This document shows, one piece after another, positions 48,007 to 54,659 of a stretch of DNA of 64,000 nt. The stretch's first letter is position 1, and the number at the start of each line of letters is the position of its first letter. This DNA is from Paludibacteraceae bacterium (GTDB lineage: Bacteria; Bacteroidota; Bacteroidia; Bacteroidales; Paludibacteraceae), in the NCBI GenBank assembly GCA_024400125.1, contig JAKSNG010000003.1:1-64000 (forward strand). The letters run 5' to 3'. The translations under genes were made by a program, and so were the position numbers. The notes below the pieces were generated by a model. It searched no databases. It saw nothing but the letters and a program-made list of their open reading frames with translations, and was not told the DNA's origin.

Positions 48007-51000
48007 CTACAATACTAAAATCTTGACTACATGGTGATTCTCACCATCTACTGTATTGCATAAAACAGTATAGATTCCTGCTGCAGCACGGTGACCTCGC
48101 TGGTCTTTTCCATCCCATACAGCGGTTCCGCCATTGGAGCGCGTCTTGCAAACTAAATGGCCAGCCGCATCAATGATGTTTACCACCGAGTTTTCCATTA
48201 ATCCTGTAATGGCAATTGTGCCTATATAATTAGGACGAACAGGATTAGGATAAGCGTATGCTTCTGAATAGTCGTCTTGTCCTTGAGAAGCATCACCATG
48301 ATATGAAATAAGTCCTTTACTTGTGCCAATGAAGACTTCACCAGTGCGGTCTAAGATAGCAATAGAAGTGATTTCATTAGATAATAATGGTGAGTTCTCT
48401 GCGGTGAAATGGGATATTTCTTCTAAACCATCTTCCGATACTAAATAAATACCAGACGAAGATGTCCCAATCCATTTACGATTAACACCATCAATAGCGA
48501 TACATTGTACTTGCTCTGTTCCTAACAAGTAATCTGCTAACCCCGTGCCATCTTCACGTGGAATAATCACACGTTGACATTGCTCTGAAGAGAAGAAGTC
48601 ATAGGAGGCTGGAATAATAAACAAGCCTTCATCATAACCCACCCATAAGTCTCCATTATGATCTTGCGCCAATGAGTAAATATAATTAGGAGTAATAGCT
48701 TTCCCATTTTGGTCAATAAAACTCCTTCGTTTGATAGTTCGATCATCGTATGAATGATATGGAGTGCCACCATCATCGAATAAGATAAGTCCCGTACTAC
48801 CTCGGTGTTCTAAAAACCACTTACGTGCTGGATGTTTGTTATCTTGAATAAGATAAGACGGAGTGTTCAATTCTATTGCTTGTCCGTTGCTTCGTAATGG
48901 GAGCCCATACCAATGTCCATCAGGACTCATAACATTGAGCGGATAAGCATAACCACCTGTATTCAGTACCCATAGATTTCTCGCAGAATCCAAATAGACA
49001 CCATCTGTACGTACATAGTTGGCTAAATTTGGATCTGATGGACCTAAAGCAGAACGCAAAGTAGAGTTATTATGTGAGTAATTCTTAATCGCTTTTCCGT
49101 TTTGATATTCAATAACTCCCTTGCCATACGATGAAGCATAGAAGTGTCCAGGGTCATTAGGATCAACAGCATAATATAGTAAATCGTTCACATTGACATC
49201 TATCTGACTCTTTGTTTGACTTTTGGTAATAACACTCCAAGTATGATTGGAAGTATTTAGCCAAATAGCATCGCCAGAACGTCCTTCTTGTGACGCCCAT
49301 CGTCCACCTTGCGACATCATCAATTGGTCTCCGAATGTCTGTACTCGGAATGCTGTGTTAGAATAAGGACCACTCGGTAAAAACCTCTGGTAATTTCCAC
49401 TCAGACAACGCACAATTCCGGAACCATTGGTAGCAACCCAATATGCTTGAGTAGATGAATCAAATGTGGCATCATAAGGCCAATAACGACCTTCTGCTAT
49501 ATCCCATTGATTATCGTGCCATGTCATCAAACCTACATCGGAAACTGCTGCAACTAATCGATTATTAGTGTTCTGCATCCATATGTACTGCTTGGTATCG
49601 TCTAAAATTTGCCAAGCGCCATTGAGATAGATGTAAATCTTATTTTTTTGAAGTATGTAGAGTTCATGATTACAACCTACTATTTGCTGGATTTTTTCAT
49701 TTATTTGAGGCTTAATAATCCGTTTCCAATTGGCAAAATCCATCATATTACTATGTGTAGAGGTGTAATAAATGGTGTCTGCGGATGCCGCATAAAGTGT
49801 ATCTCCGACCATAGCCAAAGAGGATATATTCACAGATGAAGCATTAGCTCCAATATAATATGTATTCTCTACTTCGCGCTTGCGAATATCAATAGACATA
49901 ACGCCGAAAGACAAACCTAAATAGACCTTGCCTTCATTCATCAAAACAGTATTAACTTGGAAAGGTAAGGTGAAAGATTTGAGATATAAATCAGACATAA
50001 GATAGGTCTCGCCTTTTCGATTTAATAAATCAATGAGATTGTCTTCATAAATGATCATTAATTGGCGCGTTTGTTCATCGTATGCAATATGCTTGACCGA
50101 AGACCCATTCAATCCGTTTCCTTTGGCATAAGTGGTGATTTCCTCAGAAACTTTATCTACAGAAAATAGTGCGCCATTCGCTAAACCAAACACCTTTCTA
50201 TCTGCATTTTCAACCTGAGAAACTCGACCATAGGAAAAGTAATTTGTCCAATTGAGCATGGACCCCATATTATCTTGTTGCTCTTGATCGAACTCGGTGT
50301 TATTATCCGTAATGTCTGTGGAATGGTCGGAATATGAGAATAAACCATCTGCAGAACCGATATACATACAATCTAACGGCTCACAATAAGCTAACGAAAA
50401 GATATTATTTGTGGATAAAATGGAATTGGTAACCGTTATATGGTTGAGTAGTGTGCCATCCGATTGAAGAATATAAATACCAGCATTAGTTGCTACCCAA
50501 AGATTCCCTTCTTTATCTTCTGTAATATCATTAATGGTCTCTTCTTTGCCAATCACAACACCATTCTCGTTGGTTGTCATCAGTTGTTGGCATTGATTGG
50601 AGGTAAAAAAATCTGTTGTATTCGTGATGCAAAGCAGTCCTGTATTTTCTCCACCAAACCAGATGTTACCTTTTTTATCTTGATACAACGCGAGGATGCT
50701 TACGGGCGTGATGTTTTCTCCATGTTGGTTTTGCCATGTGTCACGGAAAATAGCACGATCATCCGATGCGTCATCCAAAGTGTTATAATCATCCACTAAC
50801 AATATTCCTACTCCAGAACGAAACGTAGCAATCCATTTATATCGTTCTTGTTGATTATCTATGAGTAGGGTTAATGGACAATTACAGATATGAGGAGAAC
50901 CGTCCACAATAGGATATAAACCTCCCCATTCTCCATTACTTTTCTTGAATACTAAGGGGGCTCCTTCCCCTCCTGCTGACACTGCCCATAATGTACCATT

Positions 51001-52116
51001 AGAATCTATCTGTGCTCCTACGCAACGGGTGTAGTTCTTGGGATATAATGGCGCTGCGGTTGTTAGAGTACTATTATCAGGCATAAAGTGATTAATCACA
51101 TTATCGCCTCGCATTTCGAATAGTCCTGTTCCATAAGTGGTGACAAAATAATGGTCAGCATCTTGTGGATCTTGCACCACATTCATACAATCTAAGAAAG
51201 GGTCATTCGCAATTTGTTTTTTGACTTGTTCGTTGGTAATATTATGCCACTTGCCATTTTGCAATATCATGATACATCCAGGACGCTTATATTGTGTAGC
51301 CCATGCACCACCATTGACTATATATAATTTATCACCAAAGCATGCCATTCTATATATTGTATTATTCAATGGACCATTGGGTAAATATGTAAAATCTTCC
51401 CCTGTGATAGAATGTCTCAATACTCCCTTTTCACCTCCCGCTTTCCACAAGTCTCCATGTATATCAATACCCTCTGTTTGTTTCTTTGCGTCGCGTTGCA
51501 CACGTCCGTTGTTAGCAGTCTTATGCCAATAACGATAGTCAAGTAGATTATCTTTTAGGTATGCTACATATAGGTTCTTTTGAGAAAAGGCATAGACACT
51601 ATCTTGATATACCACTACATCTTCTACATTCACTTCTGATGCTTCATCACCAATGTAACAACATTGAACAAAGGTGTGGTCTGTCATACTAAAAGTTAAC
51701 ACACCGAATGGTTCTGCCATATAAACCACTCCATTGTGGAACGTTATATTATTTGTGGTTTTGGTTGCAGTAATATCTTTGGTATAGAAGTCTGATATAT
51801 ATTGCACTCTGCCATCCTTGTCGATAATATCCATTTTTCCCGTTTCATATACAACAAGCAGTTGTTGTGAAGTTGGATCATAACCGATATTATGAATATT
51901 CGTGCTATGTAACCCAGTTCCAGAACCATGCAATGTGATTCGCTCCGTTATGATATTTACAGAAAATAATGAGCCATCACTCAATGCATATACTTCGGTT
52001 GGGGAAATAGCAATACTCGTCACGTTGTTATAGGCTAAATGACTTTGCCAAGAAACCGCCATCCCACTTGTTGACAACAAGAAGAGTAGAATGCTTAGTA
52101 TATATATCTTTTTCAT
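48007..52116 (-). CDS. PorZ-like beta-propeller protein, internally duplicated
   Basis: 1369 residues with a signal peptide (MKKIYILSILLFLLSTSGMA). The first about 610 residues (WQSHLAYNNVTSIAISPTEV, LFSVNIITERITL, KWIATFRSGVGILLVDDY, FFTSNQCQQ) are repeated from about residue 615 (WTNYFSYGRVSQVENADRKV, LFSVDKVSEEITTY, KWFLEHRGSTGLILFDDG, FFSSEQCQR). Each half carries two regulator-propeller-type seven-blade units, the layout of PorZ, a type IX secretion surface protein of about 780 residues. The last 85 residues (YAYPNPVRP to HHVVKILVL) are a T9SS sorting domain. Third gene of aspA-rdgB-porZ, 9 bp after rdgB. Confidence 0.85.
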   Translation of the reverse strand: MKKIYILSILLFLLSTSGMAVSWQSHLAYNNVTSIAISPTEVYALSDGSLFSVNIITERITLHGSGTGLHSTNIHNIGYDPTSQQLLVVYETGKMDIIDKDGRVQYISDFYTKDITATKTTNNITFHNGVVYMAEPFGVLTFSMTDHTFVQCCYIGDEASEVNVEDVVVYQDSVYAFSQKNLYVAYLKDNLLDYRYWHKTANNGRVQRDAKKQTEGIDIHGDLWKAGGEKGVLRHSITGEDFTYLPNGPLNNTIYRMACFGDKLYIVNGGAWATQYKRPGCIMILQNGKWHNITNEQVKKQIANDPFLDCMNVVQDPQDADHYFVTTYGTGLFEMRGDNVINHFMPDNSTLTTAAPLYPKNYTRCVGAQIDSNGTLWAVSAGGEGAPLVFKKSNGEWGGLYPIVDGSPHICNCPLTLLIDNQQERYKWIATFRSGVGILLVDDYNTLDDASDDRAIFRDTWQNQHGENITPVSILALYQDKKGNIWFGGENTGLLCITNTTDFFTSNQCQQLMTTNENGVVIGKEETINDITEDKEGNLWVATNAGIYILQSDGTLLNHITVTNSILSTNNIFSLAYCEPLDCMYIGSADGLFSYSDHSTDITDNNTEFDQEQQDNMGSMLNWTNYFSYGRVSQVENADRKVFGLANGALFSVDKVSEEITTYAKGNGLNGSSVKHIAYDEQTRQLMIIYEDNLIDLLNRKGETYLMSDLYLKSFTLPFQVNTVLMNEGKVYLGLSFGVMSIDIRKREVENTYYIGANASSVNISSLAMVGDTLYAASADTIYYTSTHSNMMDFANWKRIIKPQINEKIQQIVGCNHELYILQKNKIYIYLNGAWQILDDTKQYIWMQNTNNRLVAAVSDVGLMTWHDNQWDIAEGRYWPYDATFDSSTQAYWVATNGSGIVRCLSGNYQRFLPSGPYSNTAFRVQTFGDQLMMSQGGRWASQEGRSGDAIWLNTSNHTWSVITKSQTKSQIDVNVNDLLYYAVDPNDPGHFYASSYGKGVIEYQNGKAIKNYSHNNSTLRSALGPSDPNLANYVRTDGVYLDSARNLWVLNTGGYAYPLNVMSPDGHWYGLPLRSNGQAIELNTPSYLIQDNKHPARKWFLEHRGSTGLILFDDGGTPYHSYDDRTIKRRSFIDQNGKAITPNYIYSLAQDHNGDLWVGYDEGLFIIPASYDFFSSEQCQRVIIPREDGTGLADYLLGTEQVQCIAIDGVNRKWIGTSSSGIYLVSEDGLEEISHFTAENSPLLSNEITSIAILDRTGEVFIGTSKGLISYHGDASQGQDDYSEAYAYPNPVRPNYIGTIAITGLMENSVVNIIDAAGHLVCKTRSNGGTAVWDGKDQRGHRAAAGIYTVLCNTVDGENHHVVKILVL

Positions 52117-52125
52117 TGTTGTAAA

Positions 52126-52704
52126 TTACAATATTTGTTTCAATGCCGCCATAGCACGCGCACGATGACTAATGGAGTTTTTGATTTCAGCAGGTAATTG
52201 CGCAAACGTTTGTTCGTGCCCTGTTGGAATAAATATGGGATCATAGCCAAACCCTCCTTCACCATGTTCTTCGAAAGCAATGGAGCCATTGACAATGCCT
52301 TCTACTTGTGTAACCTCACCTTCTTTAATGAGTGTGATGACGGTTCTAAAACGAGCCGTACGATTGGTCTTTCCTGCTAATTCTACTAGTGCTTTGTGAC
52401 GATTATTCGCAGGATTGCTCGGTTCCCCTGCCCAACGTGCAGTATATACCCCAGGCTTACCACCTAAAGCGGATATTTCTAGACCTGTATCATCTGCGAA
52501 GACCCAAAATTGGAGATTGTGCTGCTGCAACCAAGTGGACACAGTCTGCGCCTTAATAAGCGAATTAGCCTCTAATGTTTCTCCTGTTTCCTCAATCTCT
52601 TGTTCAAAACCGACATCGTGTAAACTTAAAACTTCGTGGTCAGACAGAATAGCACGAACTTCAGCCAACTTATGAGCATTATTACTGGCAAATATAAGTT
52701 TCAT
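52126..52704 (-). CDS. rdgB: XTP/dITP pyrophosphatase
   Basis: 192 residues. It hydrolyses non-canonical purine triphosphates to keep them out of DNA. LIFASNNAHKLAEVRAIL at the start, FADDTGLEISALGGKPGVYT, FGYDPIFIPTGHEQTFAQL and SHRARA match the Ham1 family. It overlaps the aspA stop (ATGA). Confidence 0.96.
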   Translation of the reverse strand: MKLIFASNNAHKLAEVRAILSDHEVLSLHDVGFEQEIEETGETLEANSLIKAQTVSTWLQQHNLQFWVFADDTGLEISALGGKPGVYTARWAGEPSNPANNRHKALVELAGKTNRTARFRTVITLIKEGEVTQVEGIVNGSIAFEEHGEGGFGYDPIFIPTGHEQTFAQLPAEIKNSISHRARAMAALKQIL

Positions 52705-54134
52705 CGGCGTGGTTTGATATCCAATTTAACAGGACGAATCATGTTTTCTGGACTAAGAATTGTATCTAACTCTTCTTTCGTAAGAATACCATGTTCAAGT
52801 ACTAATTCATAAACACCACGACCTGTAGCAAGGGCTTCTTTTGCTATTTTAGTGGAGTTCTTATACCCAATGATTGGATTTAAAGCCGTCACAATACCGA
52901 TGCTACCTTTGATATAGTTTTCGCAGCGTGTTTTGTCTGCTTTAATGCCTTCTATACAGAACTTACGCAATACATCAAAACCATTCATCATGATTTCCGC
53001 AGACTCGAAGCAGCACTGTGCCATCGTTGGTTCTGCCATATTCAGTTCCATTTGCGCAGCTTCATTGCACATTGCTACACAGAGGTCGTTGCCAATCACT
53101 TTGTAACTGATCTGGTTCATTACTTCAGGAATAACAGGATTTACTTTACCTGGCATAATCGAACTACCAGGTTGACGAGCAGGTAGCTCCAATTCATGCA
53201 GTCCACATTTAGGACCTGATCCCAAAAGACGTAAATCATTACATATTTTGTTCATTTTAGTGGCTATGCGTCGGAGAACGCTGGAATATCCCACCATGCA
53301 ACTGGTATCGCTTGTAGCTGCTACTAAGTCCGCAGCTAATACTACATTCCATCCTGTCGCTTGAGCTATGGCAGCGGTGCATTTTTCTGCATAACCTGGT
53401 TGTGCACAAATACCAGTGCCAATAGCTGTTGCCCCCATGTTAATGGTTAGGAACTCTTCAGCGGCATCATTCAAGTGTTTAACTTCATCTCTTAGAATAG
53501 AAGCAAACGCACCAAAAGTTTGACCCAATGTCATTGGTACTGCATCTTCAAGTTGAGTACGACCCATTTTGAGAACATCCTTAAACTCAATAGCCTTGGC
53601 CTCAAATGCCGCAATCAGTTGTTCAAAATGTTTGACAAACTCTTTATTGGTTGCATACAATCCTAAATGAATAGCTGTTGGGTAAGCATCATTGGTTGAT
53701 TGTGCGCAATTGACATGGTCATTGGGAGAGCAGTATTGGTATTCGCCAGGCTGATGCCCCATAATTTGCAACGCACGATTAGCAATAACTTCATTAGCAT
53801 TCATGTTGGTGGTCGTTCCTGCACCACCTTGAATCATATCTACAGGGAACATCTCATGGTGTTGACCAGCAAGCAACTCCTCACATGCCTTACGAATGCC
53901 TGTATATTGCTCGTCTGTGAGAAGACCTAACGAATGATTTGCCTCTGCCGCTCCAAGTTTGGTGTATGCCAAACCATGAATGAATGTAGGATAATCACTT
54001 AACTTGAATTTAGAAATTGGGAAGTTCTCAATACCGCGTTGCGTTTGAACACCATAAAGAGCTTCAATTGGAATTTGCAATTCGCCTATCAGATCACTTT
54101 CTGTGCGAGTTTTACCACTAAAATGAATAGCCAT
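52701..54134 (-). CDS. aspA: Aspartate ammonia-lyase
   Basis: 477 residues. It converts aspartate to fumarate and ammonia, feeding fumarate respiration common in gut Bacteroidales. The superfamily signature GSSIMPGKVNPVIPE, the GGAGTTTNMNANEVIANRAL stretch and the catalytic-site segment MGRTQLEDAVPMTLGQ are present; these fit AspA better than FumC. The start at 54134 is fixed by the promoter at 54161-54192, since an upstream in-frame ATG at 54215 would lie before the transcript start. Confidence 0.93.
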   Translation of the reverse strand: MAIHFSGKTRTESDLIGELQIPIEALYGVQTQRGIENFPISKFKLSDYPTFIHGLAYTKLGAAEANHSLGLLTDEQYTGIRKACEELLAGQHHEMFPVDMIQGGAGTTTNMNANEVIANRALQIMGHQPGEYQYCSPNDHVNCAQSTNDAYPTAIHLGLYATNKEFVKHFEQLIAAFEAKAIEFKDVLKMGRTQLEDAVPMTLGQTFGAFASILRDEVKHLNDAAEEFLTINMGATAIGTGICAQPGYAEKCTAAIAQATGWNVVLAADLVAATSDTSCMVGYSSVLRRIATKMNKICNDLRLLGSGPKCGLHELELPARQPGSSIMPGKVNPVIPEVMNQISYKVIGNDLCVAMCNEAAQMELNMAEPTMAQCCFESAEIMMNGFDVLRKFCIEGIKADKTRCENYIKGSIGIVTALNPIIGYKNSTKIAKEALATGRGVYELVLEHGILTKEELDTILSPENMIRPVKLDIKPRR

Positions 54135-54160
54135 AATACAAAATTTATTTAAATTGCCCA

Positions 54161-54192
54161 CAAAATTACAACAATATTTGCATATATGCAAA
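54161..54192 (-). promoter_or_regulatory. Promoter of aspA-rdgB-porZ
   Basis: Minus strand: TTTG (54192-54189), 20-bp spacer, TAATTTTG (54168-54161). The -33 box is the right end of the palindrome TTTGCATATATGCAAA. Confidence 0.85.
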
Positions 54193-54208
54193 TTTTTGAG
54201 TACTTTTG
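54177..54208 (+). promoter_or_regulatory. Promoter of the DUF2147-panD-tgt operon
   Basis: TTTG 54177-54180, 20-bp spacer, TACTTTTG 54201-54208. The -33 box is the left end of the same palindrome that holds the aspA -33 box, so the two promoters overlap back to back. Confidence 0.85.
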
Positions 54209-54230
54209 CGCGCAATTTTGTGAAATTAAT

Positions 54231-54659
54231 ATGAAAAAGATGGTATTTTTAGCCTTTGTGGGGCTATTTTGTATGTGCGCGTATGGTCAAGTAGATCAAA
54301 TCGTGGGCGATTGGAAAACTGTGGATGACAAGACGGGAGATAGTTTCTCGATTGTTTCTATCTATGCAGGAAATAATGGTTTGTATTATGGCAAGATTAG
54401 TAAAATGCTTGTTGGACAAGATCTAGTATGTGACTTATGTGAGGGTGCTGATCATAATCGACCATTGGAAGGTTTGGTGATCATTCGTGACATGAAAGCC
54501 ATCGATGGCGAATTGCGTGAAGGAAAAGTGTTAGACCCAGAATCGGGCAAGTTTTACTATGGTAAGATTTATCTTAAGGATGGTAAGTTAGTACTGCGTG
54601 GTAGCCTTGATAAACGCGGTTTCTTAGGACGTAACCAAACATGGGTTCCTGCCAACTAA
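54231..54659 (+). CDS. DUF2147 secreted protein
   Basis: 142 residues with a signal peptide (MVFLAFVGLFCMCAYGQ). VGDWKTVDDKTGDSFSIVSI, YYGKISKML, a CDLC pair and GSLDKRGFLGRNQTWVP match DUF2147, a small beta-barrel family of unknown function in Bacteroidota and Proteobacteria. The start at 54231 follows from the promoter; panD is 12 bp downstream. Confidence 0.88.
   Translation: MKKMVFLAFVGLFCMCAYGQVDQIVGDWKTVDDKTGDSFSIVSIYAGNNGLYYGKISKMLVGQDLVCDLCEGADHNRPLEGLVIIRDMKAIDGELREGKVLDPESGKFYYGKIYLKDGKLVLRGSLDKRGFLGRNQTWVPAN

Follow-up and report, generated by a model that had tools for sequence, protein, structure and literature searches.

PorZ of P. gingivalis (PDB 5m11, Q9S3Q8) is a single double-propeller unit of 776 residues, in which two consecutive β-propellers, the first with seven blades, are closed by an N-terminal strand and followed by a C-terminal sorting domain (CTD); a calcium-type site in the second propeller, D520-D530, has been described (PMC5121618). 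The protein is tethered by PorQ (PMC5562754); its ligand is the phosphomannan of A-LPS, which it presents to the sortase PorU (PMC8545088). PorZ from T. forsythia, on the other hand, fails to bind the A-LPS of P. gingivalis (PMC8545088). PorZ is monomeric in solution (PMC5121618), and a later paper gives the attachment complex as 1:1:1:1 (PMC12704123).

The window analysed here, a stretch of 64,000 nucleotides, comes from a gut/rumen-type Bacteroidales genome of 1.6 Mb (G000) and contains one intact, uninterrupted open reading frame with an ATG start (48007..52116, minus strand) that encodes not one such unit but two, in 1369 residues. An initial annotation had called this protein PorZ-like and doubled by internal tandem duplication, which is borne out by the NCBIfam equivalog T9SS_PorZ (NF052228; 974 bits against a cut-off of 260, over three stretches), by two collinear halves and by a conserved rdgB-porZ locus. 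Each half resembles the P. gingivalis protein in having two consecutive propellers closed by an N-terminal strand, with a calcium-type loop in the second; a sorting domain follows once, at the C-terminus. The features of the locus are:

52126..52704, minus strand: rdgB/HAM1 NTP pyrophosphatase, the conserved neighbour upstream of porZ
52060..52116, minus strand: signal peptide, residues 1 to ~19 (MKKIYILSILLFLLSTSGM), read from the sequence, with a putative cleavage site
51385..52023, minus strand: N-half first propeller, residues 32-244, 20 strands and thus 5 blades in the AF2 model
51445..51522, minus strand: N-half deletion junction, residues 199-224, with a gap of ~77 residues relative to the PorZ first propeller
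50329..51351, minus strand: N-half second propeller, residues 256-596, from AF2 and the fold match to 5m11
50758..50790, minus strand: N-half calcium-type loop, residues 443-453 (DYNTLDDASDD), matching D520-D530 of P. gingivalis PorZ
50254..50328, minus strand: inter-half linker, residues ~597-621, AF2 pLDDT below 50
49381..50196, minus strand: C-half first propeller, residues 641-912, ~7 predicted blades (~28 strands, AF2)
48301..49350, minus strand: C-half second propeller, residues 923-1272, from AF2 and the fold match to 5m11
48742..48774, minus strand: C-half calcium-type loop, residues 1115-1125 (DGGTPYHSYDD)
48472..48558, minus strand: motif RxDG..LADYLL..DGxNRKW, residues 1187-1215, a conserved feature of C-halves and of single PorZ
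48010..48255, minus strand: C-terminal type IX sorting domain, residues ~1288-1369, single copy, from the 5m11 and NF052228 alignments

Self-alignment, structure prediction and a search for a single-length porZ elsewhere in the genome had been proposed as checks, and all three agree with a doubled PorZ. In a BLASTP self-alignment, residues 18-608 match residues 618-1285 in two collinear blocks (29% identity over 182 residues, E 2e-31; 34% over 397 residues, E 1e-61), and the best Smith-Waterman score between the halves is 778, whereas 200 shuffles gave no score above 70. PF21544 (PorZ_N) matches two stretches (224 bits vs 27). AF2 models of both halves have 5m11 as their best PDB fold match (N-half, E 1.3e-37 and TM 0.76; C-half, E 2.6e-46). 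No separate single-length porZ was found in the genome, all NF052228 stretches above the cut-off lying within this one frame; the frame is the genome's only PorZ, and PorZ proper. The suggestion that the attachment complex might have gained a further member in this protein finds no support, as the doubled form replaces porZ rather than adding to it. The DNA repeats between the two halves are short and diverged, so that the duplication is old and not an artefact of assembly; the doubled frame moreover recurs in at least 93 genomes.

The annotation had named closer similarity to ordinary two-component regulator propellers as the observation that would speak against PorZ, and a Pfam scan does match Reg_prop repeats (PF07494) in the doubled protein; the same scan finds no kinase domain. 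BT4663-type sensors (4a2l, 4a2m, 3v9f) are sensor kinases without a T9SS CTD, and they match much more weakly in both sequence and fold: the best two-component protein reaches 9.9e-18 by sequence, compared to 1.7e-73 for 5m11, and in the fold search such proteins reach 1e-16 for the N-half and 1e-22 for the C-half. Together with the equivalog score and the synteny of the porZ locus, this makes a two-component regulator propeller identity practically negligible, and we rejected it.

The two halves are not equivalent. The AF2 models (N-half, pLDDT 80 and pTM 0.80; C-half, pLDDT 73 and pTM 0.67, with the sorting domain poorly modelled at confidence below 50) were built on alignments of 8 sequences, and the blade counts are accordingly predictions, while the 77-residue gap in the first propeller of the N-half is plain in the sequence alone. 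The earlier claim that the halves align over their whole length is thus right as to collinearity but not as to completeness, since the first half lacks this segment; similarly, the four expected propellers are all predicted, but they are unequal, with five blades instead of seven in the first. The usual two seven-bladed propellers per molecule are matched, in the AF2 prediction, by the C-half alone, and the whole protein departs from them. The single sorting domain, as annotated, is C-terminal and absent from the N-half; it aligns with 5m11 as far as residue 1353 and with NF052228 to position 755 of 757, while Pfam yields only weak CHU_C/FlgD_ig matches and PF18962 does not detect it. The C-half is a canonical PorZ with its sorting domain.

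Across the genus, the first-propeller segment is absent from most N-halves and also from two C-halves (L103 and L104). In another family, the only PorZ of G363 (C1:2661513-2663612) and of G424 (C1:126981-129008), a single protein of 697-715 residues (L067, L068, L079, L080), lacks the same segment through an independent loss. These alignments indicate that part of the PorZ first propeller has been lost repeatedly.

PorZ is present in 166 of 178 genomes of the same genus. Frame lengths were tallied in 151 genomes of the genus: 93 frames are doubled (at least 1200 residues), 55 are single (no longer than 900 residues) and 3 are intermediate. Single porZ genes of the genus (e.g. in G011, G023 and G014) likewise lie beside rdgB and have the same CTD; they are ~35-45% identical to the C-half described here and differ in lacking the N-half. 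Beyond the genus, PorZ was found in 341 of 393 genomes sampled from the order Bacteroidales (206 genera), and no fused double was seen among the matches listed, in a search that a very weak first half might escape. Out-of-genus genomes with two strong PorZ matches were considered as candidates and discarded, being contig splits, separate genes, a second copy elsewhere or a gapped single gene. One genome, G206, has a second, more diverged porZ (L074; 436 bits) on a separate contig (C91:857-3064) in addition to an ordinary one. The doubling is therefore a trait of the genus, found in most of its species. It is new here, and a literature search on duplicated or rumen PorZ returned no relevant paper.

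The adjacency of rdgB and porZ is kept within the genus, and it extends to further genera of the family and to other families. The partner genes PorU (1026 bits), PorQ (295 bits) and SprA/Sov (2672 bits) are single-copy in G000; a second, weaker match to the PorQ profile adjoins PorU and is probably PorV. Neither PorU nor PorQ was seen to be duplicated along with porZ.

This bears on whether the fusion could be a covalent pseudo-dimer, i.e. whether the complex holds two PorZ molecules, with the fusion supplying both modules and one CTD sufficing for export. Single-copy partner genes would fit such an arrangement, as would the porZ pair of G038, from another family, where the gene has also been duplicated in tandem beside rdgB (C20:212649-217296; L002 and L073); these are two separate full-length genes, each with its own CTD, and they are sisters in the tree. 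Given that PorZ is a monomer in solution, that the complex is reported as 1:1:1:1, and that the halves are unequal, with blades and the CTD-side motif lost from the N-half, we consider a pseudo-dimer unlikely.

The history of the halves was followed in two trees. In the larger one (93 rows), all 27 N-halves form one clade (support 99) nested within the genus, where several single genes branch off before it, while the C-halves are intermixed with other single genes. In the smaller one (41 rows), the N-halves again form one clade (100/100), and a clade of C-halves is rejected (AU p 8e-77, for a group picked after the first tree had been seen). Non-monophyly of the C-halves is what one would expect if some single genes descend from doubled ancestors. 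N-half and C-half distances are strongly correlated (Mantel r 0.865, exceeded in 0 of 5000 permutations). Trees and distances together indicate a single tandem duplication, after which the two halves were inherited together; one event of this kind would explain both the monophyly of the N-halves and the congruence of the distances.

Three groups of single genes nest among the doubled C-halves with strong support in the 93-row tree (L027; L014, L082, L096, L097 and L100; L083, L091, L098 and L099). These nested genes keep the inter-half linker directly after the signal peptide, as a scar: ...ANTHIDTSEDNWTYGNMHQW in the single L096 can be compared with the junction DTSEDNWTYG/NMYQW of the doubled L110, and GDIDYGSMQQW in the single L098 with EEIDYG/SMLNW in the doubled L092. 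A relocated N-half was not found in 10 genomes of reverted species. Because the linker sits behind the signal peptide and no other N-half was found in those 10 genomes, the N-half was excised in frame, most likely on at least three occasions, a count that leaves out 12 further singles (L008 to L094) and L024. Some single genes of the genus, with a signal peptide followed by PxGxW, probably never had an N-half. Taken alone, this anatomy and history seem to us close to certain: the doubled PorZ is genuine, a variant architecture of a known component that is confined to one clade.

Conservation is also uneven along the N-half. Of the columns that singles and C-halves conserve, 43 are retained and 1 is lost in the N-half before residue 1182 (43 of 49 conserved positions), against 13 retained and 19 lost between 1182 and 1276, so that its losses are concentrated in this region (Fisher p 1.4e-8). 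The motif RxDG..LADYLL..DGxNRKW is among them, with a 4-residue deletion common to nearly all N-halves shown. Since motif and CTD are both missing from the N-half, this surface would, on the simplest reading, serve the CTD or a partner bound nearby. The calcium-type loop, by contrast, is kept in both halves, N-halves included. Separately, L033 and L034, single PorZ proteins from uncultured Bacteroidales, have lost the second-propeller calcium-type loop by deletion.

Purifying selection acts on both halves, with pairwise dN/dS of 0.07-0.19 for the N-half and 0.04-0.13 for the C-half (rough values, as synonymous sites are near saturation). The N-half evolves somewhat faster, and mean identity among N-halves is 40%. 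One might regard it as a near-neutral relic left by a chance in-frame tandem duplication, tolerated, slowly eroded and sometimes deleted, with little function of its own; the eroded blades and motif, and the three or more reversions with linker scars, are what such a relic would leave. That the frame has been kept open in 93 of 151 genomes across so deep a divergence, with dN/dS well below 1 and most conserved positions before residue 1182 retained, makes this distinctly improbable in our view.

Alternatively, the N-half may have acquired a different binding partner, be it PorU, PorV, cargo or a surface polymer, in a role unrelated to LPS delivery. Residues conserved specifically in N-halves, including E58, Y244 and T363, and the altered number of blades point in this direction, but most of the conservation in the N-half, including the calcium-type loop, is shared with ordinary PorZ, and we find a new partner doubtful.

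We tentatively suggest, at a probability of roughly 40%, that the doubled protein is a canonical PorZ to which a second double propeller that binds glycan is tethered as a capture arm. The C-half would presumably do the ordinary work of PorZ, being exported by the T9SS, tethered by PorQ and supplying the PorU sortase with an LPS-type glycolipid. The N-half, a second copy without a CTD that is joined through some 25-40 residues of flexible linker, would most likely act as an extra glycan-capture arm, binding a second repeat unit or a second glycolipid beside the sortase; it would then be located at the surface, and its binding of glycan may raise avidity or change glycan specificity. The identity and fold of PorZ, a sole copy at the rdgB-porZ locus with single-copy PorU, PorQ and SprA, the monophyly of the N-halves and their congruence with the C-halves, purifying selection and the positions kept before residue 1182 are all in line with such a capture arm, as is the precedent of P. 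gingivalis PorZ, which binds and presents A-LPS (PMC8545088). Counting against it are the faster evolution of the N-half, the blades lost in most lineages, the deletion in at least three lineages and the T. forsythia PorZ mentioned above, together with our finding no mapping of the glycan-binding residues of PorZ in the literature. In reverted lineages, the N-half cannot be essential to the T9SS, since it has been deleted outright. A broader form of the idea, that one chain with two unequal glycan-binding modules offers PorU two LPS anchors or two surface glycans throughout the genus, with some lineages having returned to a monovalent state, we regard as rather unlikely.

A natural fusion bears on which PorZ propeller holds the glycan, which surface faces PorU or PorQ and how many PorZ molecules the complex contains. 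With one module freed from the CTD, it amounts to a built-in experiment on the constraints acting on PorZ: comparing positions kept in both halves with those kept only in the C-half separates the constraints of fold and ligand from those of export and partners, and singles out RxDG..LADYLL..DGxNRKW as a candidate for the surface on the CTD side or for partner docking. Anchoring can also be compared directly, as one genus includes species of the single, doubled and reverted kind.

As PF18962 detected nothing as a counter of cargo in G000, CTD cargo was counted with TIGR04183. No clear link between doubling and cargo number emerged (3-26 matches in doubled genomes, 5-41 in single ones). Within the genus, counts range from 3 (G000) to about 40 (G011 and G028), the two highest belonging to early-branching singles, and the genomes retain PorU and PorQ, as well as SprA in those checked, across this variation. 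A doubled form may change the handling of cargo, as the annotation had suggested, but any such effect is not essential in all species, several of which have dropped the extra half again.

Near porZ, a fumarase/aspartase-like gene (52701-54215) has a TTG-started frame that overlaps a divergent frame at 54186-54659; its true start is probably a downstream ATG (MAIHFSGKTRTES).
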